From Monodelphis domestica (lineage: Eukaryota > Chordata > Mammalia > Didelphimorphia > Didelphidae): DNA of 64,000 nt. The notes beneath the pieces are model-generated. The model worked only from the letters and a program-made list of their open reading frames with translations. It did no database searches and was not told where the DNA came from. The translations under genes were made by a program, and so were the position numbers. Of this stretch, positions 10,572-49,200 are shown one piece after another. Where the stretch lies: positions 213,691,019 to 213,755,018 of the forward strand of contig NC_077228.1 in the NCBI RefSeq assembly GCF_027887165.1, given 5' to 3'. Each line of letters begins with the position of its first letter. Within the stretch, counting starts at the first letter, position 1.

Positions 10572-11777
10572 GGGTTGCCAGAAATTTAATTTATTCCAAA
10601 TAGATTTATTTACAATTTATGTATGCCAACAAATCCTTCCCTGTTCCAGGTGGTATTTGGTTTAAGAATTATTGAAAGCCAAATTTCCCCTTTCTAGTTG
10701 CTGCCTCAGGTAGGTAGGTATATTTGCTTTCTCCTAGCCAGGATGCTCCTCATCCCATTTTCTACAGTTTATCCCAGAGGTAACATAAGCAAGTAACATA
10801 TACTTTCACAGCTTAGAACAGAGGGCAACTAGAAGAAGACTATTCACACTTTCAAGGGGGTGAGGAGCCACAATAGCTTGGGCCTCTGAACTGTCTGCCC
10901 AGTGTCATTGTGGAAATGTGAGGAAGCCTTGCTCAGGTGATAATCCATTCTCTGGATTTATCCATCTTTGCCACTCTGTTCACTCTTGGATCTGTGAAGA
11001 TTAAATTTAACTCTCCCCTGATTGTGAAAATGAATTTAACTCTCCCCTGGTTGTGAAGATTAAATTGTAACCCCTGCCTATTTTTAGATTTAATCACCAA
11101 AGGTATAAACACCCTACTTAAAAGTTGAGTGGAGAGATCTGCTGATTTGGGGATTTAATCACCAAAGGTGTAAACACCCCATTCACACTTGAGTGGGGGA
11201 GGTTTGAGACCCATGTGTGCAATAGTGGGTGACAAATCAGCATTAAACTGACTGCCCCATGGCAGTCCTAATGCAAAGCTTCTACTGTGATTAGTAGATG
11301 TAAATTTAGGGGAAGGCACAGGAAGTGATGCAAAAGAAAGTGTCTTTAAAAGGGAGTAACAACTTCCTGAGTACAGTTTTTACTTGGAGTTCTGAATTCA
11401 AGTGGCGACTGGAGAAGAATATGCTGACTGGACCTGAGACCCTGTTCCTGGTGAGGCTGTTCTTAAATCTCTTTCTTTTGGACTGACAGGTGGTAAGTGA
11501 AAAGGCTGACTCCTTTCCTGAATATTTTCTGAAGAAACTAACCTTGGGAGAGACCTGCCTCTTGAGAGAGTTTTCCCCAGGTCTTCAGCTTTGCTGAGGA
11601 TGGTTGAAACTAACTCTCCCTGACCAGGTTGAGCCAGGGGCTGGGAGTAAATTACTTAGTACTTGGGCTAAATATCTTACCCTATCCTCTCTCTGGTTTT
11701 CTAACTTCACTCTTTCTATATTTTGTAAATAAATTGTAAATAAATCTATTTAGAATAAATTAAATTTCTGGCAACCC
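10572..11777. mobile_element. 1.2-kb element bounded by 49-bp inverted repeats
   Basis: 10572-10620 (starts GGGTTGCCAGAAATTTAATT) and 11729-11777 are reverse complements with one mismatch in 49 positions. The right two thirds (from about 10990) look LTR-like: short direct repeats, a TTTAAAAG box near 11343 and clustered AATAAA near the end. The interior of the left third does not match the right, so this is not a full palindrome. The terminal 11 bp recur at about 20864 beside similar LTR-like sequence. No transposase was seen and flanks give no clear target duplication. Options: a non-autonomous TIR element, or two LTR ends in opposite orientation. Confidence 0.6.
10995..11230 (+). repeat. 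Short direct repeats inside the inverted-repeat element
   Basis: TTTAACTCTCCCCTG occurs at about 11007 and 11036, with a third diverged unit after. A second pair, GATTTAATCACCAAAGG, starts near 11088 and 11153 (65-bp period), each followed by T(A/G)AACACCC. This is the enhancer-like repeat pattern often seen in LTR U3 regions. Confidence 0.7.
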
Positions 11778-12721
11778 TATTTTAAATATGATCCAGTCAA
11801 ATCTTTTTTTATAATAATTACCCCTTACCCCCCCCTTACAGGCCCCATCCCTGGTAGATTAACCTAACCTTGTTCCTGCTGTCTATGTATGTTTCTGCTC
11901 AGAAGTGGACCTCGTATGAAAGGGAACTTTGAGAAGTTCCCAGGAGGTGAGTCTTTTTTGCCTGAATTTCTTCTGATGTCCACTCATCTCTCTTCCTGGA
12001 ATCAGGAGAGCAAGCAGGGCTTGCAGGTCCAGGCTCTCTCCTTCTTCCTGGGACTGTCTCTTTGACTCACATCCTTGGGTACCAGACTCTGCTTCTCTTT
12101 TCACCTCCTCCAAACCCCAGTGTCTGAGGCCCAAGTAGCAGTCCCTCCCTTATACCTGCCTCCTGCTCCATTTTAGATGCCTTTATCTTCCCTCTACTAG
12201 GCCCCACTCTCCCTGGAGATTTCAGTATTAGCTTGGTAATGGACCTGGGACCCCTCTTCCTGGGTAGCTCTTTCCCTGATCCTTACCTGGTGACACCCAT
12301 GATTCTCTCCCCAAATCCAATTAGAGCAGATGTCCTCTTAGAAGATTTAGAGACTAAGGCAAGGAGAAGGGTCTCAAGGATCCTAGAGTCCAGCCAAGAG
12401 ACAGTGAAAGAAACCAGTAATCCTGGACATGCAGGAGTCAGGGAGGAGAGAATGCTGATGTATGAGCTGGAAGAAATCTTAGACACTCTTCTTTGTGGAA
12501 GTAAGGAGGGTACTGGGCTTCTGGGACCATACAAAGGGCAACTGGTATGAATCCAAGTAGGCAAGCATATATATGAATGGGCTATTATAGCTGTAAATAC
12601 ATATGACTCAATGTGCTAAATATATAAAGTCTGTGTAGAAATAAATAATAGTGGCATGTGATGTGAGTATATTCTATTCCCATTACACCTATTTGGACTT
12701 CTTTAACTCCAATGTGGTTGA

Positions 12722-12905
12722 CAGTCAAGACCTGGAGATGGGAGGTTAGGGTTCAAATCTGACCTCAGACACTTCCTAGCTGTGTGACCCTGGGCAAGTC
12801 ACTTAACCCCTATTGCCTAGCCCTTACCACTCTTCTGCCTTGGAACCAATATATAGTATTGATTCTAAGGTGAAAGGTTTAAAAAGTTTAAACCTAAAGG
12901 TTTAA
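12722..12905 (+). mobile_element. CORE-SINE, 5'-truncated
   Basis: It begins inside the head (caagacctggagatgggagg), with intact core agctgtgtgaccctgggcaa and tail agtattgattctaaggtgaa. The purine microsatellite at 12906 starts at its 3' end. Confidence 0.9.
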
Positions 12906-13033
12906 GAGAAAAGAAAAGGAAAGAAAAGAAAAGAAGAGAAGAGAAGAGAAGAGAAGAGAAGAGAAAAGAAAAGAAAAGAAAAGAAAAGAAAAGAAAAGAA
13001 AAGAAAAGAAAAGAAAAGAAAAGAAAAGAAAGA
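12906..13033 (+). repeat. (AAAAG)n / (AAGAG)n microsatellite from a SINE tail
   Basis: About 128 bp of pure purine pentanucleotide repeat directly follows the 3' end of the SINE at 12722-12905, so it most likely expanded from its A-rich tail. A block of AGAAG units sits within AAAAG units. Confidence 0.95.
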
Positions 13034-13582
13034 AGCATTCTAAACACGGAGGACAGCCAATGAAAGGAGTCAGGAGGTGGATTATCTTGTTCTAGCTGTA
13101 GCACAGAGGCCAGTGTCACTGGCAAGAGAGTAGGCAGTGGGGAAAACAGTATGTGGGTGGTTGTAAGATGTAAAAAGCCCAGAAAAGGGAAGGAGAGGAA
13201 TATTTTTTGAAGGGCTTCAGATGCCAAATATAGGATTTTATACTTGATCCTGAAGTTGATAGGGAGTCAGTGGGGTCACTGAATCAGACCTGCACTTAAA
13301 GAAAATCACTTTGACAGCTGAGTGGAGCATGGACTGGAATGGGGAGAAATTTGTGGCAGGCAGACCCCACGTAAGGTCTGCACCTCCAGGGTGTTAACAG
13401 TGTCAGTGGAGAGAAGGGATCATATAAGAGAGATATTACCCATAAAAGTTGACAGGTCTTAGCAATAGCTTGGATATGGGAAGAGAGTGTGAAATGGAGA
13501 CTGAAGAGTCCAGGATGTGACCTAGGGATGGAGCCTGGGTGACTTAGATGGCTAGTGGTACCCTCTGTAGTGATAGGGAGGG

Positions 13583-13632
13583 GGACAGCTAGGTGGCTGA
13601 ATGGGTAGAGAGCCAGGTCTGGAGATGGGTTC
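13583..13632 (+). mobile_element. CORE-SINE head fragment
   Basis: Only the first ~50 bp of the element (gacagctaggtggctgaatg, agagccaggtctggagatgg) are present, ending abruptly near 13632. Confidence 0.6.
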
Positions 13633-13929
13633 AAAACATAATAAAACATTTGAGATGTTTTCAATCCATAGGGTGGAATGATAACACTTTAATCAAATAA
13701 TTATATAGAGATGATTTATTTTGAAGATATTTATTTCCCAAAATATTTAGGTGAATTAGTTTTACAGTTCTTGAAAGGAACCTTAATGATTCCCCTGACA
13801 GGATCAATACAGGCATTGTACCATAATTAAATATAATTAAACTAATTTTCACTACAGGTATTATAAAAGTTGTGATGGAACTATAAAGATACACATATAT
13901 TCACTCCAATACAGAAAATACCAGTTGTG

Positions 13930-14530
13930 GCCTTTTTATTATTTTTCTCCATATTATTTTATTTATTTGTTTTTAGAATATTTTTCCATGGTTACATGAT
14001 TCATGTTCTCTTCCTCTCTTCTTCCCTTCCTCCTCCTGGAGGTGATAAGCAATTCAACTGGTTTATACATGTCTTATTACTTAAAACTCATTTCCATATT
14101 ATTCATATTTGTTATAAAGTAATCTTTTAAAACCACAACCCCAAATCATGTACCCATAGAACCAAATGATCAATCATGTGTTTTTCTTCTGTTTCTACTC
14201 CCAAACTTCTTTCTCTCCATGTGGATAGCATTTTTTCTCATAAGTCTCTCAGAATTGTTCTTGATCATTGCATTGCTGCTAGTAGAGAAGTCTGTTACAT
14301 TTGATCGTCCCACAATGTTTCAGTTTCTGTGTATAATGTTCTCCTGGTTCTGCTCTTTTCTCTCAGACTCAGTTCATGGAGGTCTTTCCAGTTCTTTTAG
14401 AAATCAAGCAGTTCCTCATTCCTTAGAGCACAATAGTATTCCATCACCATCATATGCCACAATTTGTTCAGCCATTCCTCAATCAAGGAATACCCCCTCA
14501 TTTTCCAATTTTTTTGCTATGTTTTTTTTT
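13930..14530 (-). mobile_element. L1 3' end (ORF2 C-terminus plus 3' UTR), diverged
   Basis: In minus orientation it carries the L1 3' UTR (ccatggttacatgattcatg, aagcaattcaactgg) followed by ORF2 C-terminal sequence (ttctcctggttctgctcttt, acaatttgttcagccattcc). Substitutions and the left-hand microsatellite-like T/A tract show age. Confidence 0.8.
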
Positions 14531-15162
14531 TTAATTAAAAGATAGCTCTCAAATTCAGAACACAATATAACTAGACTATAAAAAGGATGCATCTCCCCCC
14601 AAAGTGATGGAGAATGCTTGGTACCACAGTAGACACAGTTCCCTTTCCATAGGACATTCTAGCAAAAGAACTACTTATAAATCTAAAAATACAGTATTCT
14701 CTTTGATTGCATATTGTAAATACAAAAAAAAATGAAAAGCTGGTTTAGCAAATACATAAAAGAGAAATTGTTCGAAAGGAGAGATTAGTAAACGACTATA
14801 GGAAACACATGTATCAAAACTGAAACCTCAACTGGTTAGTATGGCTTTGAAATTGAATTTGATAGCTCCCAGAGAAAGCTTTGAAATGTCCAAACTTTAT
14901 TTCAGAAATAATGTGTTCTAGGTGGTTTCGCCTCAGCTCTCACTATGCCTATTATGTAGGTGTATAAAACTGATTGCTAGGTGATGGTTTTATTTCACAA
15001 CTAGGCATAGTCAGAAAAGGATTTATAAAATCAGAGCCCTAGCACCAAGGATGAAACAAGACCAAGGCAGAGTATTGCTCTGGGAGACAGAAAACACGAA
15101 TTCTAGTTTGAGTTCAGACACTAAATTGCCATTTTACCTTGGAGACAAGTGTTTTCCTTTCA

Positions 15163-15272
15163 TGTGTAACCCAAGGCAAATAAGTCACTTAATCCCAAAT
15201 CCCTTACCACTCTTCTGCTTTGGAACTGATACCTACTATATATTCTAAGACAGAAGGTAAGGGTTAAAAAAC
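15163..15272 (+). mobile_element. Old CORE-SINE 3' part
   Basis: Diverged core and tail (aggcaaataagtcacttaat, ctcttctgctttggaactga, agacagaaggtaagggtt) ending in an A run. Confidence 0.75.
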
Positions 15273-15289
15273 AATAGTGAAGTGATTGT

Positions 15290-15830
15290 GAAGAATTTTC
15301 ACTAATTTTTCCATTACTCAGAATACAACTTCCTCTTAAGAATCTGTTCAAGTTGCATTCATCATTTGTATTTTTCTCTTGGTTTAGCATATTTTGCTTT
15401 TTGCCAGTTGCTATAAGTCTTCCTAATTGTCTCAGAAGCCTTCTCATCATGCACAATAATATTCAATTACATTCTGATACCTTGGTTTTTTCAGACATTC
15501 CCAAAGGGTACCTATCTACTTTGTTTCTAGCTCTTTACTATCACAAAAAAAAAAATGCTGCACAGAATATTTTGGTATATTTTAAACTTTTGTTTTTCTC
15601 TTTGACTTCCTTGGAGTATACAGCCAGGAAGTGAGATAAAGGAGTCAAAGAATGTGAAGAGTTTCATCACCTTTCTTGCATAATTTCAAATTGAAGTCCA
15701 GAATGGTTGGACCAATGAATAATTCTGCCAATAGTACATCAGTGTGCCCATTTTCTTCTTAGGACCCCTTGAACACTGACTGTTCCCATCTTTGCTAATT
15801 TATTTGATGTAATCTGTTTTACAGGAGAAA
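15290..15830 (-). mobile_element. Old L1-type fragment
   Basis: Minus-strand LINE remnants are recognisable from tccagaatggttggaccaat and the downstream aatattcaattacattctga block, both counterparts of sequence in the younger L1s here. It is heavily diverged and has no ORF of interest. Confidence 0.5.
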
Positions 15831-16413
15831 TTCCCTCAAATGCTTTTAAAAGTAGGAAGGAGTATAAATATGAAACAAATACAAATTATTGGCCCAGATA
15901 AAAGCCTCTGAAGACTTCTTTTTTGCATATATTTTCATATAAAGAAAGCTTTAGGTTAGACTTCTTCTCTAAGAGTCTTAGGGGGGTTCTCTATGCTTCT
16001 GCCCTCCTCTGTTCCTGTCTGCAAAGAATTCCACCCAATTTCCATCAGTGGTTTATTCACTTTGTGGATAATCCCTGTACATTTTCAGGTCTAGATTAGG
16101 TGTGCTTAGCTACCCAGAACACTTAGGGTTCACCCTGCCTTTTAACTGCTCTGGATCCAGAGAGTTCAAAGCAGATTTAGGACAATAAAGATTAGGATAA
16201 TAAAGTAGGGAAATCACAAATGTTTTTGCAAAGACAGGAGGAAAATACTCTTGAATTGCCCTCTATCCTGGATGATTCCCATCACAATTGTCCTAATTAA
16301 TATAATAATCTGACTATAAATGCAAGTGATCTTGGGTAGGCTTGGGGAATTGGGACAAGGTTCTAGAAACTAAGCATTAAATGGGATGGGTCCCAGTTGG
16401 ATTAGCTATGCAT

Positions 16414-16643
16414 GAGGAGGTTTTGTGCCACCATGCTGATGTCCCTGGAATCCTTAATGTTCTATTTCTCTGTTCTTACCCTTCCCATGTATGTTCTTCA
16501 TTCTCAGCTGAGAGCATCTGTCATCTCTATGTGAAGTTGAATCATGCTTACACCATCCTTGACTGGACCTTCAGCCACTCCACCATCAGCTGCCATATGG
16601 ACATCATTTATTCCTCTGACTCTCTGAAAACACATATCTAAAG
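16414..16643 (+). pseudogene. FADS6: FADS6-like fatty acid desaturase relic, frameshifted and internally deleted
   Basis: The + strand keeps pieces of FADS6 in the right order. Around 16487-16552, VCSSFSAES then YVKLNHAYT matches the segment of human FADS6 holding the second histidine box (remembered as VCTAFTAEH ... HVKMHHAYT). It joins directly to ILDWTFSHSTISCHM (16553-16599), matching VLDWAFGHSIISCHV just before the third histidine box. About 120 residues between these blocks are missing. One base is lost after GA at 16600-16601. Restoring that frame in the reading gives HHLF (16602-16613), then an in-frame TGA at 16617-16619, then LSEN, against human HHLFPRLSDN. A weaker first-box match (TTG.GCCACC.ATG) lies at 16419-16434. 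In human, FADS6 is the neighbour upstream of FDXR on the same strand, which fits a decayed resident gene; a retrocopy is the alternative. Human residues are from memory. Confidence 0.6.
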
Positions 16644-17534
16644 GTAGAAAAGGGATTGGGGCAGAAAAGTGCTGAGGACAGGAGAGAAAATGGCCAGAAG
16701 AAGGGAAAAAAAGTATTAGGAGTCAAGGAGAAAATAATTAGAGGCAAGGAAGAATAGTTAGGGGCAGAAGAGAGCAATTAGAGAGACCAAAGAAACTGGC
16801 ACAGTAGGAATAACTTCAGGGCATACATGTCTAGAACTGATCCTACCCACTGCCTCTTGAGCAGGTCAGAACTTAAACCATCCTAAATAGATAAATGTCA
16901 ACCATATTCTATTTTTTTTCTCTCAATGGAAAATTAACCACTTAACTCCATTTTAAAAAATTGACTTTTTGAGGGGCAGCTGGGTAGCTCAGTGGACTGA
17001 GAGCCAGGCCCAGAGATGGGAGGTCCTAGGTTCAAATCTGGCCTCAGATACTTCCCAGCTGTGTGACCCTGGGCAAGTCACTTAAACCCCATTGCCTAGC
17101 CTTTACTGTTCTTCTGCCTTGGAACCAAATCATAGTATTGATTCCAACATGTAAGGTAAGGGTTCTAAAAATAAAAATTGACTTTTTTTATTTCTAATAT
17201 CAATCAACCAAACAACAAGTATTAATTAATCACTTATAATGTACCAAACACTGTGCTCTAAGCTAGGGATACAAAAAGTGCCCCCCCAAATTATAATTTC
17301 CTTTTTCCTGTCAAGGAACCTTTCCTTCTAATAAAAAAAAAATTATTTTTAAGGGGAAAAGGGCATCTAAATGGTTCAGTAGATAGAGAGTCAAGCCTAA
17401 AGAATAGAAGTCTGGTTCAAAATCTGACCTCAAACACTTTTTTAGCTGCATGATCCTGGGCAAGTCATTTAACTCCAATTGTCTAGTCCTTGGGAAGGGG
17501 GAGAGGAAAAAATAGTTCAATAAAATAAAGCATT

Positions 17535-17810
17535 ACATTAATTAATTTTACCTTTATATGCTACACCTATTTCTATTTCTCTGGTCTTACCCTCTACAAA
17601 GGCAGGGAGAGGTGTTTTTTCTTCTTTGAGACCTAGTTTGATCATTATAATTTCATAGTGTTCCATTTCTATTTTTGTTGTTATTGATGTTATTTTCTTC
17701 TACATTGTAATGACTGTTTATAGTGTTTTTCTAGTTCTGCTCATTTTGCATCAGTTCATGTAAGTCTTCCCATACTTCTTGCCAGTCCTCTTCTTAGATA
17801 TCTTCCAATT
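17535..17810 (-). mobile_element. Old L1 fragment
   Basis: The stretch tttctagttctgctcatttt followed by gcatcagttcatgtaagtct is the diverged counterpart of the conserved L1 ORF2 3' segment (gttctcctggttctgc...gcatcag) in minus orientation. It separates two SINEs. Confidence 0.5.
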
Positions 17811-17982
17811 AGCACCTATGTGGTACAGTAGACAGGGCATGACTTGAATTTAAATAGGGTCTCCGTGTGACCCTGGGCAAGTCACTTAACCCCCATTGCC
17901 TTACCTCTTACCACTCTTCGGCCTTAGAACCAATACACAGTATCGATTATAAGACAGAAGATAAGGGTTTTAGAATAAATAA

Positions 17983-18048
17983 ATATATGTAAATAAATAA
18001 ATAGATAGATAAATAAATAGATAAATGAATGAATGAATGAATAAATAT
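17983..18048 (+). repeat. (AAAT)n/(AGAT)n/(AATG)n tetranucleotide tract
   Basis: Tandem AAATA, GATA and GAAT units directly follow a SINE tail at about 17975. Confidence 0.9.
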
Positions 18049-19320
18049 GGTCTCAGACCTAGTTGTGTGACCCTGGGGAAGTATCTTAAGCTGTCTTCCT
18101 GCATTTCCTTAAGAGTGAAATAGGAGGAGGCAGCTGGGTAGCTCAGTGGATTGAGAGCCAGGTCTAGGGAGGTCCTGGGTTCAAATTTGACCTCAGAAAT
18201 ATTCTATCTGGATGACCCTGGGCAAGTCACTTAACCCCCATGGCCTAGCCCTAACCACCGTTCTACCTTAGAACCAATACACAGTATTGATTCTGAGATG
18301 GAAGGTAAGGGTTAAAAAAAAAAAGGAATAAAACAGGAATGATAAGAGCACTTATCTTCCAGGATAGTATGAGAATCAAATGAAATAATAATTGTAAAGC
18401 ACTTAGCACTGTGCCTGGCACATAGTAAGGAGGGACTGTATCATAATTATCACTCTTTTCTCAATGCCTGACATATAACAGGCATTTAATAATTTCCTGC
18501 AGGGGCAACTAGGTGGCTCAGTGAATTGAGAACCAAGCCTAAAGATGGGAAGTTTTGGGTCCAAATGTGGCCTCAGACACTTCCTAGTTGTGTGATCCTG
18601 GACAAGTCACTTAGCCCCAATCACCTAGCCCTTCCTGCTCTTCTGCCTTGGAACCAATACTTTGTATTGATTCGAAGACAGAAGGTGAGGGTTAAAAAAA
18701 AAATAGGGGGCAGCTGGGTGGCTCATGGATTGAGAACCAGGCCCAGAAAGTCCTGGGTTCAAATCTGACCTCAGAAACTTCCTAGCTGGGTGACCCTGGG
18801 CAAGTCACTTAATCCCCATTGCCTAGCCCTTACTACTATTTTGCCTTGAAACCAACACACAACATTCATTCTAAGACAGAAGGAAGAATTTTTAAAATAA
18901 TAATAATAACAGTAATAATAATTTCCAAATGAATGAATACATCTCTAGAATTAGGGACTCCACTATCAGTCCCTTTATTAATGTAGGGGTTGAGCCAGGT
19001 CTAACCCAAAACTCTCCTGTTGCAACTGATGGGAAATTCTTTTTATTTGAGCTCTGATGTGATACAGAGCATAAATAGTCAGCATTTCCTTTCTAATAAT
19101 AAACCCTTCTATACTAAAGGACAGTTCTGAAGATGTTGCTTGCCCATCCAGCACCTCACTATATCTCCACTTCTCAAATCAAATTCTCTAATTTATTTTT
19201 CCTTGGGGCCAAACAAATACAACAACTTTTTATTATTATTAAATTTTTTTAAATTTTATTTTTTCCCCATTACACGTAAAAACAGTTTCCAACATTTTTC
19301 AAAGAACATTGATTCTCCGC

Positions 19321-19432
19321 CTGTCAGCTAGGGGAGGGTTGGCGGGAGGGGGGGAGGAAAAGAAAATGATCTCTGTTTCCAATGAATAATGTATGAAAAT
19401 GACCAAATAAAATGTTTAAAAACTTAAAAAAA
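19321..19432 (+). mobile_element. Very short 5'-truncated L1 3' end with target duplication
   Basis: A plus-strand L1 3' tail (gatctctgtttccaatgaat ... ccaaataaaatgttt, then A9) is inserted into older minus-strand L1 3' UTR. cattgattctc before the insert (about 19306-19319) is repeated right after the A-tail (about 19437-19448). It matches the 3' end of the young L1 at 22.4 kb. Confidence 0.75.
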
Positions 19433-20214
19433 AAGAGCATTGATTCTCGAATTCTCTCCCTCCTTTCTTCCCTTCTGGTTGGGGGGTTTCCTGCCTACCT
19501 TGAGATGAGAAGCAATCTCACACAGATTTTACATGAGGCACAACTTTGTCTCAGCTTCAATTTGCATGAACATCTCTCAGTTGCCCACTATGTGCAAGAT
19601 GCTATTTTCTGTTCCTTTGATGGTTTCAGTGGTTCTCTTTAATCTCTTTGGTGGAAACTGCATTTCCAGTTTCTCCAAGGGAGCTAAGAAAGGTTATAAA
19701 CTAGGGGAATTAGATTGGTTCATTTAGTGGGCATAAAAGATGACCTGCCTTTGTCTTAGACTCCTCTAAAGGTCAAGGAGGCCCAGAGGGTGACCTGTTC
19801 TGCTTGTAGAATAAGGGAAGGGAGCAATAGAGGATAAAGTTCTAGACATTTACCCTGCTTTGTGGCCTTGTAGCTATGGGATGTGTTTCTAGTATTTGGG
19901 CCAAGTAGTGCCACCCCATCAGTGACCTCTTCTAAACCTCTCCTAGAACTGTCATTGGGGTGTTAAAGGAAATATCTCTTCAGTTCACTGAAGTGTTAGG
20001 TTTATAGCCCTGATCCTCAGGTTCCAGTCCTGGATTTGTTACTTAATCCCTGTCCTACTAGTTTTGTGATCCTGGACAAGTCATGGGCAGTGACACCTGG
20101 CATCATCGATCCTTTAGCTTAAAGCTTGTAAGTATAATGATGGTAGTGGGTCAGGGAGAAGGAGGGGAGGCTAAGTGACTAATGAGCTGTCCTACATGTG
20201 AAAGAGAATTCTTG

Positions 20215-20875
20215 ATTGTCTATCCAGAGTTAACACATTACCTCACTAGATTGTGAAGACAGGATTAACTCTCCTTTGTCTACCTTTTGATTAAATCAAC
20301 ACAAGCTTGAACTAGGTGGAGGAGCTCGAAAAACCACTTAGTGAATTCACACCCTACTTAGTGCTAGGTGAGAAGCCAGCAAGATACTTGGAGAGCTCCA
20401 TCCTTTTTTTTAACTCAGTCAGAAACTTTTGAATTCTTTTAAGAGTTCACAGCTTCAGAAACTGAACCCTTTCAATGAGTTCACCCCTATAGAAGGTGCA
20501 AACTTTTCCCCACAAACACTGCTGCCTGGGCAATGCTAGACTATGGAAACTGTGATTGGCCCCTGTGAATAGGGGCAGGGACAGGAAACCACCATAAAAG
20601 CCACTAAATCTTTTGGCTGAGGGAGGCTGATGAAGTTGAGTCTCATGGAGAGTGTCTACTGGAGATAGTCTTCGGTGAAGTTCCCTAGTAGATTCCTGGA
20701 GAACTAGAAACAGGTTAATTAAGTAGCTGAATAAATAATGGACAGTCAGAAAAGGTTCAGTTGGATGGTCCTGGCTTAAAACTTAAAACTACCTTAAGAT
20801 TTGAACAGTAATTCCTGGTTATTGATTTGACCCCTGAGGAATAGAAAAGAGATAGGTCGGTGGGTTGCCAGAATT
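20215..20875 (+). mobile_element. LTR-like block related to the 11-kb element
   Basis: It shares phrases with 11.0-11.6 kb (ttgtgaag...ttaactctcc, attaaatcaacac, cacaccctacttag, then a region ending aataaataatgg). A weak TATA-like ccataaaagcc lies at about 20591 and gggttgccagaatt at 20861. It is diverged, borders are uncertain and no coding sequence is present. Confidence 0.45.
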
Positions 20876-21599
20876 CTTGATTTCATAACTTTATTTCACA
20901 GTCATATCCAGTTCCCTGTGTTTCCTCAGGGAATGGGACACAAAAGGATATGGTTGTCTGTGAGGTTCTGAAGGTTCCAAGAGACTCAGATTAACAAAGT
21001 AGCTGAAGAAGAGATCCATGTCTACCAGGGATCTGTAATGGGGAATAGGAAAGGAAAATTGGATGAGACTTCAGGGGATGGGAAATCTCTGAAAGGTTTG
21101 CAAAGATTTTCTGAAGATTGCTAGGGAATCAATGACCACCATCTTTTTTTTTTAATTTATATTTATTATCATACAAAATACACTTCCATATTGGCCATCG
21201 TTGTAAGAGCAAATGCCTATATAAACAAAACCACAAAATAAAGCCATAAATACACTGATGTGAAAAATGACTCTGACACTTCTCCGGAAGTGGAGAGCAT
21301 TCCTATTGTCAACATGAAATATGGACACCTCAATTTTACCCCTGCCCTTTGAGAAACCCCAGTACCAGGCACACCTATTTTGGATTGAACAATAGGCCTT
21401 GGACCATTTGGGGACCCTAGTGCTGGTGGGATTAGTGGTCATAGTCAAAATGTTGAGTGGCTTTATTTGTTTTACAAGCTTCTCCCATTGTATTAAAGTC
21501 CTATCAGGAAGCCCAGTTCTTAGTTTGACCCTTTCCTTTGTAATTATTATAGTTGACCACTCCCTGATATTACCTAAGGCTGGCTGCAACTTCTTTGCA

Positions 21600-22884: not shown

Positions 22885-25365
22885 TCATTCCCCAATTGAA
22901 GGGCATCCCCTCATTTTCCAAATTTTGGCCACCACAAAGAGTGCAGCTATGAATATTCTTGTACAAGTTTTTTTACTTATTGTCTCTTTGGGGTACAAAC
23001 CCAGCAGTGCTATGGCTGGATCAAAGGGCAGACAGTCTTTTAGCACCCTTTGGGCATAGTTCCAAATTGCCCTCCAGAATGGTTGGATCAATTCACAACT
23101 CCACCAGCAATGAATTAATGTCCCTACTTTGCCACATCCCCTCCAGCATTCATTACTTTCCTTTGCTGTCATGTTAGCCATTCTGCTAGGTGTGAGGTGA
23201 TACCTCAGGGTTGTTTTGATTTGCATCTCCCTGATTATAAGAGATGTAGAACACTTTTTCATGTGCTTATTAATAGCTTTGATTTCTTTGGCTGAGAACT
23301 GCCTGTTCATGTCCCTTGCCCATTTATCAATTAGAGAATGGCTTGATTTTTTGTACAATTGATGTAGCTCTTTGTAAATTTGAGTAATTAAACCTTTGTC
23401 AGAGGTTTTTATGAAGTTTGTTTCCCAATTTGTTGCTTCCTTTCTGGTTTTAGTTACATTGGTTTTGTTTGTACAAAAACTTTTTAATTTGATGTATTCC
23501 AGATTATTTATTTTGCATTTTGTGAATCTTTCTAAGTCTTGCTTGGTTTTAAAGCCTCTCCCTCCCCAAAGGTCTGACATGTATACTATTCTGTGTTGGC
23601 CTAATTTTCTTATAGTTTCCTTCTTTATGTTCAAGTCATTCACCCATTTTGAATTTATCTTGGTGTAGGGTGTGAGGTGTTGATCTAAACCTAATCTTTC
23701 CCACACTGTCCTCCAATTTTCCCAGCAGTTTTTATGAAGTAGTGGGTTTTTGTCCCAAACGCTGGGATCTTTGGGTTTGTCATATACTGTCTTGCTGAGG
23801 TCACTTACCCCAAGTCTATTCCACTGATCCTCCTTTCTGTCTCTTAGCCAGTACCAAATTGTTTTGATGACCTCTGCTTTATAATATAGTCTGAGATCTG
23901 GGAATGCAAGGCCCCCTTCCTTTGTATTTTTTTTCATTATTTCCCTGGATATCCTTGATCCTTTGTTCTTACAAATGAACTTTGTTATGGTTTTTTCTAG
24001 ATCAGTAAAAAAGTTTTTTGGAAGTTCCATGGGTATGGCACTAAATAGATAGATGAGTTTGGGTAGGATGGTCATTTTTATTATATTGGCTCGTCCTACC
24101 CATGAGCAGTTAATGTTTTTCCAATTGTTCAAGTCTAGTTTTAGTTGTGTGGAGAGTGTTTTGTAGTTGTGTTCATAAAGTTCCTGTGTTTGTCTCGGGA
24201 GATAGATTCCTAAGTATTTTATTTTGTCTAAGGTAATTTTGAATGGGATTTCTCTTTCTAGTTCTTGCTGTTGAGCTGTGTTGGAAATATATAGAAATGC
24301 TGATGACTTATGTGGGTTTATTTTGTATCCTGCAACTTTACTAAAGTTGTTGATTATTTCGATTAGCTTTTTGGTTGAATCTCTAGGATTCTTTAAGTAG
24401 ACCATCATGTCATCTGCAAAGAGTGATAACTTGGTCTCCTCATTGCTGATTTTAATGCCTTCAATTTCTTTTTCTTCTCTAATTGCTACTGCTAGTGTTT
24501 CTAGTACAATGTCAAATAATAGAGGTGATAATGGGCATCCTTGTTTCACTCCTGAGCTTAATGGGAATGCATCTAGTTTATCCCCATTGCAGATGATGTT
24601 TGCTGATGGTTTTAGATATATACTGCTTATTATTTTTAGGAACAACCCTTCTATTGCTATGCTTTCTAGTGTTTTTAATAGGAATGGGTGTTGTATTTTA
24701 TCAAAGGCTTTTTCTGCGTCTATTGAAATAATCATGTGATTTTTGTTGGTTTGCTTGTTGATGTGGTCAAGTATGTGGATGGTTTTCCTAATATTGAACC
24801 AGCCCTGCATCCCTGGTATAAATCCTACTTGATCATGGTGAATGACTCTTCTGATCACTTGCTGGAGTCTTTTTGCTAGTATCCTATTTAAGATTTTTGC
24901 ATCTATATTTATTAGGGAGATTGGTCTATAATTTTCTTTCTCTGTTTTTGGCCTGCCTGGCTTTGGAATTAGTACCATGTTTGTGTCATAAAAGGAATTT
25001 GGTAGAACTCCCTCTTTGCTTATTATGTCAAGTAGTTTGTATAGTATTGGGGTTAGTTGTTCTTTGAATGTTTGATAGAATTCACTGGTGAATCCATCAG
25101 GCCATGGGGATTTTTTCTTAGGAAGTTCTTTGATGTCCTGTTGGATTTCTGTTTCTGATATGGGATTATTTAAGAAATCTATTTCTTCTTCTGTTAGTCT
25201 AGGCAATTTATATTTTTTTAGATATTCATCCATATCACCTAGGTTGGTGTATTTATTGCAGAGCTTGTGGATAGTTTCCATTTGGGGAGGCATGTTTTGA
25301 TTTTGTTTGGATTTCATCCTCATTCTCTTCTTTTCCTTGGGTACTCCCTCCATAAAAGTTTTCAA
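22885..25365 (-). CDS. L1 ORF2-like reverse transcriptase ORF, 826 codons, endonuclease missing
   Basis: This is LINE-1 ORF2 protein, which performs target-primed reverse transcription. The open frame runs from the finger region ([17 protein letters not shown] near residue 40) through the RT core ([38 protein letters not shown], catalytic FADDMMVY) to the C-terminal region with RTRRTLY-type sequence just beyond the stop. The N-terminal apurinic endonuclease domain is absent: the first ~37 residues come from unrelated leader sequence in another frame. The stop at 22885-22887 is TGA where the sister copy at 27.3 kb reads TGG (GE-W-LNKLWY), removing roughly 60 C-terminal residues. The frame is otherwise unbroken, so the insertion is young. 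Family assignment is certain; activity in cis is unlikely without endonuclease. Confidence 0.93.
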
Positions 25366-26032
25366 TAGTCACTTTTTCCCCCCTTTCTTCTTGAAGGCTT
25401 GATTTTGGGACATGTGAGCCATCCCTTTGGTGGTTTTATTCCCCTTTCCTTTTTGGTCTGGGGCCTGGGTGATATGGGCGGGTTTTCTGTGAATTTAGGT
25501 TTCCTCAGACTAGTTCTTCCCAGCCTCCGAGGTTTCTTAGAGCGCTGGGCCCCTGTGTTCAGCCCAACCACCCAGGGGATCAGCGTAGCCCGCCCAGGTG
25601 TTCAGCTCCGCCCAGGTGCTCAGTGCAACTGCCCCGGAGTTCCGCAGCCCACTGTGTTCAGCTCAGGATTCTCCTGTGAAACCACCCTGAGAGGTCGTTT
25701 CCTTGCAGTCTTTAGATCCCAAGGACCCTGGTGTGCCCCCCCAGACAGAGACGCTTCTCACTCACTAGCTGTCCCAGTGAGCGCTCTGATAGCTTACTCT
25801 GGTTTGGTGGGGGAGAGGGGCGGATCAGTTCACATTTTTGTGTGAGCTTTTCCTCCTCCTTATAGTATGGAAATGTTCAAACCCCACGTACCTTCGTTCC
25901 TGTGGGATACTGGAGAGTCCCTCCGTTCTTCCAAAGGTGATTTTTATGCTCTTTTGAGGTAGTCTATTTCCTTCGGTGCTGGGGAGAGGAAGAAAGTTGC
26001 GTCTAGATTGCAGCCATGTTTACCCCGAAGTC
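25270..26032 (-). promoter_or_regulatory. L1 5' UTR/leader with promoter-like GC-rich sequence
   Basis: This stretch is the 5' end of the L1 in minus orientation. It is GC-richer than its surroundings and contains an open frame at 25362-25571 (RSKKPRRLGRTSLRKPKF), which may be the start of ORF1 or leader translation. On the + strand gcagCCATGTTTacc at about 26011-26025 places a YY1-type CCATnTT motif within about 20 bp of the element's 5' end, the position at which YY1 sets the start site of human L1. Promoter function here is inference. Confidence 0.6.
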
Positions 26033-28939: not shown

Positions 28940-29437
28940 TTTTAAGGATTGGCTGGGACTAGGCTCAGTCTGATCTTTGGAACGAATCATAGAAAGACAA
29001 GGCGGGGAAAATCTTTATCTTGGGCCCAATCTCGACTCCCTTAGTGAAGGGGGCGGGGCAAATCAGAACGCTCGTTCTCATTGGCTGAGGTCTGTGCCCA
29101 GCATAGTTTTGGAGGCAGGAAAGTTATCCTTCCCCCTTATTCCCTTAGCTACTGATGATTGGCTCAAATGAGCATTAAGGCCGCCCATGTAACGTCAGAT
29201 TCCTGTCTTCTCCCGGAAGCTGGGGTGGGGGTGGGACTGTGCAAGACGGAAGGTGGAGCTCTAGGACGGGGCACCACCCAGAAGGGGGTGGGGCCATGAT
29301 GGTTACCAGTAGTGTCCGCTGCGGGAAGGGCGGGGTCTCGGTGTTGACGAGAGAGTGGGCGGGATGGGCCGGGGCTTCTGGAAGCCCTAAGGTCTCGGTC
29401 TAGTTTCCCACAGGTACTCCTTTCTCCCTGGCCCTCC
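28940..29437 (+). promoter_or_regulatory. FDXR: FDXR promoter, CCAAT/GC-box type
   Basis: A GC-rich, CpG-bearing region ends at the FDXR ATG. Three inverted CCAAT boxes with the same core ATTGGCT occur at 28948, 29080 and 29158. GC boxes include GGGCGGGGC at about 29051-29059 and GGGCGGGG at about 29328, plus GGGCGGG near 29356. No TATA box is evident, as is usual for a housekeeping mitochondrial gene. The ATG context is ccctccATGG. Confidence 0.75.
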
Positions 29438-40665
<11,228 letters not shown>

Positions 40666-41087
40666 CTCTTCAGCTCTGGCCCAGGCCCCAAAATGTGGCC
40701 TGAGTGATGCAAGAATGTGACCTGACCTGGGCTGGGCCAGAGAAGGGGCAAGGAAGGACAAAGGACAGTCTGCCCTTGAGCCCTGTCCTTGCTGCCTCCC
40801 TCCTTCCACTCCTTTTTCTCAGGGGTCCCCATTGCCTCCAGTCCCCACCCCCCAACTGCTTTTTGTTTTTAGCATCTTCTGTTTCAGTCTCTAGCATTTG
40901 GATCACTTGGGAAGGAGTGTGGGGAGGGACAGTTCCGGGTCTGTCTGCATCCCCAGCAGCCTCAGCTTCCATCTGGGTTCTACCCCAGACATTCTTCTGC
41001 CCACTTTCATCCCAACCCATCCTTCATCTGACTGGCCTGGGCAGTGGGAGGAGGCTCAGGTGTCAGGAACCAAGGTGGAAGAAGAGG

Positions 41088-41105
41088 AATAAAGGTGGAA
41101 ATAAA
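41088..41105 (+). terminator. FDXR: FDXR polyadenylation signals
   Basis: Two AATAAA hexamers at 41088-41093 and 41100-41105, about 425 nt after the FDXR stop, followed by a GT-rich stretch (tttgtgagatgttctttgg). The inferred cleavage site is near 41120. The 3' UTR itself shows no repeat. Confidence 0.85.
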
Positions 41106-41120
41106 GAACTTTGTGAGATG

Positions 41121-41859
41121 TTCTTTGGATTCCTGTCCACATTATCCTCTCAATAGCCCTTGGCCTTGCATGGCCACCAGGTGGTGCTCTGTCTCCCCTG
41201 TAGAGGCCCCCTCCTTACTGTTTTTGGGTCTAGGGTCAATGGGGGACCCAGGCCCCTTCCCCGAAATTCTTTGCCACTCCCAATCTTCTGTCTTTGCCTC
41301 CAAAAAGGATGACTTCTTTTTGTGGTACGGGCCTGTGGCAGCCCTTGTGAAGTGCAGGGACTTCCAAGGGGAAGAATGTTTATTTTAAAGAATGGAAAGC
41401 CGTGCTAGATCTCAGAGCATAGTGAAAATAGTTCTCAGGGTCTCCAAGTGAATCCTTCAATAGTGGAGGCTGAGTAGCCCCAGTCAGCCTCATCTCCCTC
41501 AGGCTTTCATTGGCTTCTCCTAGGCTGTTCACATTGGGTTCCGGAGGAGGGGGAGGAAGAGGAAAGGCAGAGCCGGGTGGGAGCTGTCCTTCATCTCTCC
41601 CTGGTCACAAGGACTTGCCGTCCAGCCTTTCCATCTGTGTGGGGTACCCCTCCTCCCGCCTGGAGCGCCTTCAGCTCTTGCCGTCATTGATCCCGCCTTC
41701 CACTCGACAGTTCAAGCCCCTTTTTGAAGTTGGGGGGGGGGGGTCACTCCTAGAGCTCAGGAAACGGTGTGTTTTCTAGAAAAGAAGAGATCCAAAGCGC
41801 AGAAAAGAAGCCAGGAGTCCTGGCCCCCCACGGCCTCTTTTTTCTGACTCCCCCTCCTG
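41121..41859. other. FDXR-GRIN2C intergenic, unique sequence
   Basis: GC-moderate unique sequence with a G-run at about 41732-41742; no exon recognised. Confidence 0.5.
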
Positions 41860-46275: not shown

Positions 46276-49200
46276 ATGGGTAGAGCCTTGGAACTGGCCC
46301 TGCTGCTGACCACCCTCCTAAGCACCTGGGCAGGGGTGGGGCCTGGCCGGGGGAAACAGGCAGTGACAGTAGCAGTGGTGTTTGCCAGCTCTGCACCCCC
46401 ATTGCAGGCCCAGGCCCAGACCCTGGCCCGTGCCCGCCTCACCCCTCAGAACTTCCTGGACCTGCCCCTGGAGATCCAGCCAATCACTGTGGTGGTCAAT
46501 GACACCAACCCCAGCACCCTTCTCACCCAGATCTGTGGGCTCCTGGGCTCTGCCCGTGTCCATGGCATTGTTTTTGAGGACAACGTAGGCACTGAGGCTG
46601 TGGCACAGATTCTTGACTTCATCTCCTCCCAGACTCACGTACCCATCATCAGCATCAGTGGAGGCTCAGCTGTGGTCCTTACTCCAAAGGTGTTTTGGCA
46701 TCCCCTTCTGCCCTTGTCACCTTTGCTTGCTAATATCATAGACGCTTGGGCAGGGAATAGGATCTCCAGGAATGGGAAATTTGGAGGGGCAGCAGATTGG
46801 GAATCTGGGGTAAGGTGAGGCTGGGAAGGAGTCACAGACATGGAAGTTGGGAAGGTAAAGTTATATTTTGGGGGAGATGGGAATAAAATGCTAGAGGAGG
46901 GGTTTGGGGTCCTTTGGGCTGGTTAGAAGATATTTGGAGGAGAGGAAATTGGAGCTGGGAAAAGTGAAGGTTTTGAAGATCAACAGGAAGGCAGAATGGA
47001 GGAGATTAGAGTTCACATAGACAAGGATAGAAAAAGTCCAATGACTTCCCCCTTCCATAAGGAGAAATAAGAATGGGTACCAGTCTAAGCTAGAAACAAA
47101 CTAAATTTATTTCACTACATTCTTATTTTTCTAAAAAAAGTTTTATTGATGTCTTTTTTATATTCCTCCCATATAACAAATAATATTTTAAAGACATGCA
47201 ATAAAAAGAAAAAAAGGAAAAATATTAGTAAAACCAGTCAATACACTGAAAGCATCTGAAAACATGTGGAATGTATAAAACCACCTCTGCAAAGGCATGT
47301 TTGGGAGTGCCCTTTCATAGCCCTTCTTTTGAGCCATCTTTATCTGTTTTTCAATAATTTTCCAACATTAATTTTGTGTGTGTGTGTGGTTGTTCTTTCC
47401 ATTTATATTGTTCTTGTATATATGGTTCTTCTTGATTCTGCTTACTTCACTGCATCAGTTGCATTCATCACAGTTTTCATTTCTTACTTCACTGTGTTTG
47501 GATAAATCAGCATCTCTTTCTACCTACTGAGTTCTCATATTGCACAGAACTAGCCCAATGTCCTTTGCTGGGCCTTGGATACAATTTTTATTCTAAACCT
47601 TTCCATTCAATACATTTCCCCAAACCTCCCTTTAATATATATAATCTAGGTCATGTGTTCAAATCTGATCTCATATTCTTCTTAGCTGTGTGATCCTGGG
47701 CAAGTCACTTAATCCTCAATGCCCAATTCTTACCACAATTCTGCCTTGGAACCAATATATAGTATTGATTCTAAGATGGAAGGTAAGGGTTTAAAAACAT
47801 ATATATATATATCCTAAATGTTGTTCAGTCACGTTGGTTGTGCCCAAGGAGTTTTCTTGGCAAAGGTATTGAAGTGGTTTGCCATTTCCTTCTCCAACTC
47901 ATTATAGGTAAGGAAACTGAGGCAAACAGAATCAAGTGACTTGTTCAAGGTCACACACCTAGTAAATGTCAAAAGCTGGAACATATCCTAAATATCCTTA
48001 ATGACTGTTGTCTGGAACCAGGCTGGGATAGTCTTGTGTCCACTAATATTTACACTATAGAAGGCAGTGAGAATTGGAGAGGAAGAGACAAAGTGGTCGA
48101 GGGGCAAGGAAGGATAGAACCTCAGGCAGAGTGTAAATAGGGAAGAAGAGCTGAGTTTCCCCAGGAACTAATGTCCAGGGGGTACACTTCCTCCCATGGG
48201 GTCCGCCATGCCTCATGCCTCACAGCCCTATGCTGACTGTGTCTCTTCAGGGGAGACAAACCCTGGGAGAGGATGATGAAGTCATATTGTGGGGTCATAG
48301 ACAAGTTGAATTTGGTTTATGTGTGTCGGGGAGACTGAAGAAGACAGGCTGCCCCTTCCAATTCTCTGGATTTCTTTCTGGACAGTAGTTCCCCTTTAAC
48401 TCTTTTTGTTATACCTAGTTACACCTCCGACCTCAGGGCTAGAAAGAGAAAAAGAGTGGCTCTGGGTTCTGGAAGCAGAGAGGGTCTCAGCTCCTTCCCA
48501 ACTTCCTCTCCCTTCCTGGCAGGAACCAGGCTCATCCTTCTTGCAGCTGGGGGTGTCCATTGAGCAGCAGATACAGGTGATCTTCAAGGTCTTAGAGGAG
48601 TATGACTGGAGCTCCTTTGCGGTCATTACCAGCTTCCATCCTGGCTATGCTGTCTTCCTGGAGGGCATCCGCTCATTCACTGAGGCCAGCTACCTGGGCT
48701 GGGAATTGCAGGACATCCTCACCCTGGAACTGAGCCCTGGCAGCCCCAGCTCACGAGTCCAGCGCCTTCTACGCCAACTGGATGCTCAAGTGCTGGTGGC
48801 ATACTGCTCTCGGGAAGAGGCTGAATACCTTTTTGCTGTGGCTGAGGAAGAAGGGCTGGTGGGGCCAGGCTATGTCTGGGTGGTGCCTAGCTTGGCACTG
48901 GGCAGCACCGAGGCCCCACCCTCTGTCTTTCCTGTGGGCCTTATCAGTGTAGTGACCGAGAGTTGGCGCCTGAGCCTGCGCCAGAAAGTCCGAGATGGTG
49001 TGGCCATAGTGGCCCTGGGAGCCCATGGCTACTTACGGTACCATGGAGACCTGCCAGCCCCTGCTCGTGACTGCCACGCTCCCACTGAACCTGTCAGCCC
49101 TGCTGGAGAAGCCTTCTACAGGTAAGCATCCTGTGCCATGTAGGTACCAAAAAGAGAAAAAAAAATGGGGGTGGAGAAGGGTTAATGAGATATATATCAG

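Follow-up and report, generated by a model that had tools for sequence, protein, structure and literature searches.

A broken copy of FADS6 lies upstream of FDXR in the 64,000-nucleotide stretch of the Monodelphis domestica genome analysed here (the window; C2:213691019-213755018, on a contig of 544.7 Mb). This relic is almost certainly an unprocessed duplicate pseudogene, derived from an old tandem duplication of FADS6 and FDXR in which the two units suffered complementary losses. In the upstream unit (unit A) FADS6 is kept and FDXR is decayed; in the unit within the window (unit B) FDXR is kept and FADS6 is decayed. The present order is USH1G, FADS6 scraps, FADS6 (intact), dead FDXR, dead FADS6, FDXR (intact), GRIN2C.

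Region studied

The region around the window comprised 160 kb upstream and 40 kb downstream; 5,200 of its 264,000 bases are N. Negative coordinates are window-relative and give bases upstream of the window. Directly past the window, at 64001-69000, 5000 bases read N, either a gap or sequence that was withheld. A 200-bp N run (-91199..-91000) is found within -92671..-89701, with near-identical flanks (99.6-100%), and is probably an unmerged assembly overlap.

Genomic context and the two duplicate units

USH1G was placed by tblastn at -109188..-99854, upstream; an open frame at 48400-49122, downstream of FDXR, matches NMDA receptor 2C (GRIN2C, E 2e-99). The initial annotation of this DNA had held that the strand and position of the relic fit the order FADS6-FDXR-GRIN2C, and they do: FDXR-B lies downstream, GRIN2C beyond it, and the same neighbours surround FADS6 in the horse, according to an excerpt of PMC13215600.

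Self-comparison of the 264-kb region, with repeats masked by local depth alone, listed 189 pairs. A collinear same-strand chain links the two units; its FADS6 part pairs -63882..-42677 with 10878..20898, and its FDXR part pairs -34443..-19045 with 29141..41162. The chain spans the FADS6 5' flank, exons and introns and runs on past the FDXR stop in both units; it holds exons and does not depend on repeats. Some further pairs between the two stretches depart from this diagonal or match in the opposite orientation; these off-chain pairs we take for repeats. Two marks of a duplicate pseudogene are present in the relic: homology to the parent through introns and flanks, as given by the collinear chain, and disabling changes (start codon lost, exon 3 acceptor turned from AG to AT, deletions, a missing base and an in-frame TGA).

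An origin of the two units from a series of independent local duplications of FADS6 and FDXR pieces, in place of one whole-block event, is improbable, though it deserves some weight. Scrambled exon-3 and intron scraps at -78.1..-75.8 kb and a partial exon 6 at -43.9 kb mark the locus as prone to duplication, and identity varies strongly along the chain; the main chain nevertheless holds to a single order and orientation in both units, beginning in the 5' flank of FADS6 and running on beyond the FDXR stop. One clean duplication is itself an idealisation, because the units differ in length (~45 vs ~30 kb) and their identity is patchy (K2P 0.06-0.35, 22 blocks), and the scraps at -78.1..-75.8 kb point to at least one further duplication event.

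Between the dead FADS6 and FDXR, at 22885-25368 on the minus strand, lies a LINE-like open frame. It encodes 827 aa and includes a reverse transcriptase domain (PF00078, E 8e-46).

Detection and extent of the FADS6 relic

FADS6 proteins matched the site of the initial annotation (16414..16643) by tblastn in three collinear pieces: 16486-16554 (FADS6 residues 142-164), 16555-16602 (residues 296-311) and 16602-16652/16664, the last displaced by one frame and containing an in-frame TGA. As a chance control, 100 dinucleotide-Markov versions of the window were scored by best single-piece match, the best null score being 30.0 bits for the wombat query and 27.3 bits for the opossum one. Taken singly, the top two pieces at the site (31.6 and 31.6 bits, wombat; 32.0 and 30.8 bits, opossum) barely exceed the best null; they adjoin in the correct order. 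The strongest match was the exon-1 piece at 12347-12493 (52.4 bits, wombat; 40.8 bits, opossum), and with a chimpanzee FADS6 query the best real score equalled the best null (30.0 vs 30.0 bits). A Pfam profile scan of two open stretches of the relic gave a match in neither. DNA homology between the relic and the intact FADS6 copy reached E 1e-92, 7e-26 and 5e-62 across 15297-16944 (blastn), and it is this homology, not the single protein pieces, that places the identity of the relic beyond doubt.

The FADS6 relic is therefore real, as first described, with its two protein blocks in order and DNA homology to the intact copy, and it is larger than first noted. Within the extent originally given, 16489-16643 is exonic and 16414-16488 is intron. 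The part from exons 1 and 2 (12347-12500), the broken histidine box 2, the loss of the exon-3 acceptor and the intron homology on either side had gone unnoticed. A gap between the two blocks had been recognised and is present; it amounts to 131 residues (165-295), where about 120 had been estimated. The recognisable parts are listed in Table 1.

Table 1 Features of the FADS6 relic (FADS6-B) and of FDXR-B in the window. Positions are those of the window; negative positions in the last column lie upstream of it.
Feature	Position	Strand	Evidence
FADS6-B 5' flank/promoter region	10878..12346	+	Discontinuous blastn blocks to -63882..-63233, 69-77%
FADS6-B exon 1 relic	12347..12472	+	tblastn E 7e-10 (wombat P0048), 2e-6 (Monodelphis P0116); alignment
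FADS6-B exon 1/end-of-exon 2 join	12467..12500	+	Alignment to FADS6-A
FADS6-B intron 2, 5' part	12501..12707	+	70% block to -60896..-60660
FADS6-B intron 2, 3' part	15297..16488	+	Blocks to -52954..-51554, E 1e-92 and 7e-26; alignment
FADS6-B exon 3, 5' part, residues 143-164	16489..16554	+	tblastn and alignment
FADS6-B exon 3/exon 5 join	16553..16555	+	CCA, 3-bp microhomology; alignment
FADS6-B exon 5, 3' part	16555..16643	+	tblastn and alignment
FADS6-B intron 5 remains, separate blocks	16644..20085	+	Collinear to -47901..-45440, E 5e-10 to 3e-70
Match to sequence downstream of intact FADS6 exon 6	20730..20898	+	72% block to -42841..-42677
Intact FDXR-B, 12 exons, 493 aa, GT-AG introns	29438..40665	+	
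Recent gene-conversion tract	40413..40847	+	Partner in dead FDXR-A, -20026 to -19592; 3/435 differences

Disabling changes in FADS6-B

Alignment to FADS6-A showed the following changes, given in order along the relic. The ATG is replaced, so that the start codon is lost. The join between exon 1 and the end of exon 2 falls at a 6-bp CTGGAG, which FADS6-A carries in exon 1 and in exon 2 alike; ~2.0 kb is gone with it, histidine box 1 included, and the exon 2 donor GTAAGG survives at 12501. The exon 3 acceptor is changed from AG to AT at 16487-16488. Histidine box 2 (HX3HH) reads YVKLNH and is broken. The deletion between exons 3 and 5 has removed 131 codons, taking with it exon 4 and the introns on either side of that exon (3 and 4), a span of 3.7 kb in FADS6-A. 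In exon 5, a single base is missing at ~16600-16601 (GAGCAT vs GA-CAT), by which histidine box 3 is broken, and a change of CCCAGG to CTCTGA creates a TGA at 16617-16619; the one-base loss and this stop had both been read correctly from the letters alone. The exon 5 donor at 16644 is still GTAGAA. Exon 6 was not found by tblastn, the sole match (16196-16267, E 0.24) being at chance level and in the wrong order.

As a membrane desaturase, FADS6 carries three histidine boxes, HX3H, HX3HH and HX2HH, according to an excerpt of PMC6337163; in the relic all three have failed, box 1 by deletion and boxes 2 and 3 by breakage. The relic would give no functional product, since the histidine boxes, the start and the acceptor are missing. 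CpG is nearly absent from 11911-12500 (1 in 590 bp; observed/expected 0.03), as against 40 in 1001 bp (observed/expected 0.48) at the FADS6-A counterpart, a loss that would be expected for a long-methylated promoter.

Exons 1 and 2, and exons 3 and 5, are joined without introns, which is what a processed retrocopy of FADS6 mRNA with internal deletions might show, and the earlier reading had named a retrocopy as an alternative. Such an origin is scarcely credible: remnants of introns 2 and 5 survive, as do the 5' flank and the downstream FDXR homology, all in order, and both joins lie within exons, not at splice junctions. The retention of intron and 5' flank sequence is what marks the relic as an unprocessed duplicate. 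Both deletions (12467; 16553-16555) begin and end within exons, although exons account for 6% of the length of FADS6-A; this is perhaps chance.

Intact FADS6 in unit A and FADS6 of other marsupials

An intact FADS6 was found at -63040..-44817, on the same strand as the relic and ending ~57 kb upstream of it. Its six GT-AG exons join to an uninterrupted frame of 374 aa, of which residues 1-325 are identical to a record labelled Monodelphis domestica (P0116). An excerpt of PMC6337163 reports that FADS6 has six exons in the animals it compares, apart from two exceptions. A whole-genome protein search with P0116 (3.586 Gb in 13 contigs) gave nine rows: five are FADS6-A exons, a sixth is a scrap upstream with a weak score (E 0.125), and the other three lie elsewhere (E 0.2-8.8). 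P0116 is without the canonical exon 6, so exon 6 could not show in this search, and the relic was not among its rows, so that further decayed copies may exist elsewhere.

FADS6 records were listed for five marsupial species, with full-length records (373-375 aa) for Gracilinanus, Sminthopsis, Vombatus and Sarcophilus. According to an excerpt of PMC3038909, Fads6 and Otop2 are neighbours in 18 of 25 genomes, opossum being one of the 18, and the opossum Ush1g-Otop2-Otop3 locus reads as chromosome 2, 214.4-214.8 Mb of an older assembly, near the window.

The initial annotation had taken the relic to suggest loss of FADS6 in this lineage, possibly in marsupials at large. As a unitary pseudogene, the remnant of a FADS6 lost in the marsupial lineage, the relic would indeed sit on the correct strand, in the correct place by FDXR, and be plainly disabled; this reading can be given next to no credence, however, since the genome also has FADS6 in intact form and marsupial FADS6 proteins are on record. 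A unitary pseudogene has no functional copy elsewhere, and the 374-aa FADS6-A lies upstream. Given FADS6-A, on the same strand between USH1G and the relic, and the records of five species, FADS6 is lost neither here nor in marsupials at large.

Further partial sequences accompany the intact gene. At -78101..-75780, pieces of FADS6 exon 3 and of its introns 2 and 3 stand in scrambled order and are probably two or more extra partial FADS6 copies; a decayed partial copy of exon 6 lies at -43943..-43809, shortly after the true exon 6. In P0116 the C-terminal 14 residues match -37832..-37791 and not the canonical exon 6 at -44966; this end of the record looks mis-annotated or alternative.

FDXR copies and gene conversion

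FDXR-A is decayed: its promoter region and exon 1 are kept, with a TAG at codon 6; fragments for residues ~334-402 carry a stop and a frame change; the last exon is present; and a piece for residues 299-332 is doubtful (E 0.20). For the intervening exons no match was seen by tblastn in the upstream region. The promoter and exon 1 region of this dead copy (-34443..-33681) holds 20 CpG in 763 bp (observed/expected 0.37), and its promoter may still be open. In an FDXR protein search none of the 120 matches listed was named as marsupial; an opossum FDXR query did list marsupials.

A tract of 435 bp, spanning the end of the last intron, the last exon and the 3' end of FDXR, is nearly identical in the two copies (Table 1), set against a background of 477 differences in 3282 sites, counted in four of the remaining seven FDXR blocks. 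Under a uniform rate the probability of three or fewer differences in 420 bp is ~1e-24, for a tract chosen after being seen. Sharply bounded near identity within diverged paralogues, the mark of interlocus gene conversion, is thus found in the FDXR copies, and the tract reflects recent gene conversion; at a general mammalian rate its 3/435 differences correspond to ~1.3 Myr. Over 43 last-exon residues the FDXR of Gracilinanus equals FDXR-B, and FDXR-A has one change. Copying from the live to the dead FDXR fits, because the Gracilinanus last exon matches FDXR-B and not FDXR-A. Raised identity is also seen elsewhere between the copies, as at 33123-33426 (96-98%), and such stretches suggest older conversion tracts.

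Age and phylogenetic placement

Divergence between the units was measured in 22 blocks chosen by hand from the self-comparison: K2P ranged from 0.19 to 0.35 in the 14 that belong to FADS6 and from 0.06 to 0.30 in the 8 that belong to FDXR. At a general mammalian rate the FADS6 part suggests an age of roughly 37-67 Myr, a figure that conversion would bias too young and for which the marsupial rate may differ. With support of 100/99 the relic groups among marsupial FADS6 sequences, which puts the duplication after the split from placentals.

In the best tree Monodelphis and Gracilinanus are paired (89/89) and the relic stands beside the Australian marsupials at an open fork (80/92), a weak placement with its row 24% filled and its branch long (0.44). 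An AU test does not reject the relic with Monodelphis (p 0.23) or with both didelphids (p 0.229). In the 11 columns that separate the two didelphids from three Australian species, 10 of them in exon 1, the relic is Australian-like in 6, didelphid-like in 1 and neither in 4. These site patterns lean towards a relic outside the didelphid pair, and are suggestive, not proof.

It is possible, though we hold it only tentatively, that duplication and complementary loss predate the didelphid radiation and are maybe pan-marsupial, with a CpG-island promoter of FDXR-A that is open in a copy still exchanging sequence with the live gene. If duplication and loss are that old, the conserved-looking FADS6-FDXR neighbourhood of marsupials would be stitched together from two duplicate units.

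Proposed origin and comparison with known systems

In the duplication that we favour, a block of FADS6 and FDXR was copied head to tail between USH1G and GRIN2C in the marsupial lineage. The outer copies stayed intact, FADS6 beside USH1G and FDXR beside GRIN2C, and the inner copies, FDXR-A and FADS6-B, decayed. FADS6-B carries two exon-to-exon deletions at microhomologies, loss of the ATG and of the acceptor, a frameshift, a stop and loss of promoter CpG; the FDXR copies have swapped sequence recently via gene conversion. The structure, the homology, the disabling changes, the intact partners and the conversion tract are observed; the order of events and their age we infer, and the inner copies probably died through plain redundancy.

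An unprocessed duplicate pseudogene is ordinary in kind. Like the unprocessed pseudogenes of tandem segmental duplications, the relic keeps introns and 5' flank in part, has an intact parent nearby and carries disabling mutations; unlike them, it belongs to a case in which each unit lost a different one of two linked genes, which makes the intact pair a mosaic of both units. CYP21A2 and CYP21A1P are a live gene and its dead neighbour kept alike by interlocus gene conversion. The FDXR pair resembles them in its near-identical live/dead tract amid diverged sequence, and differs in that its copies are ~60 kb apart, old, similar in short tracts alone and not known to have a phenotype. No description of this duplication was found in the papers surveyed on FADS6, including marsupial FADS6 and FADS6 pseudogenes, and on FDXR in opossum.

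The locus guards against a false claim of marsupial FADS6 loss. It is also a clear example of tandem duplication and complementary decay giving an apparently conserved order, in which the intact neighbours come from different copies. In the live/dead FDXR pair, the 435-bp near-identical tract could confuse short reads.
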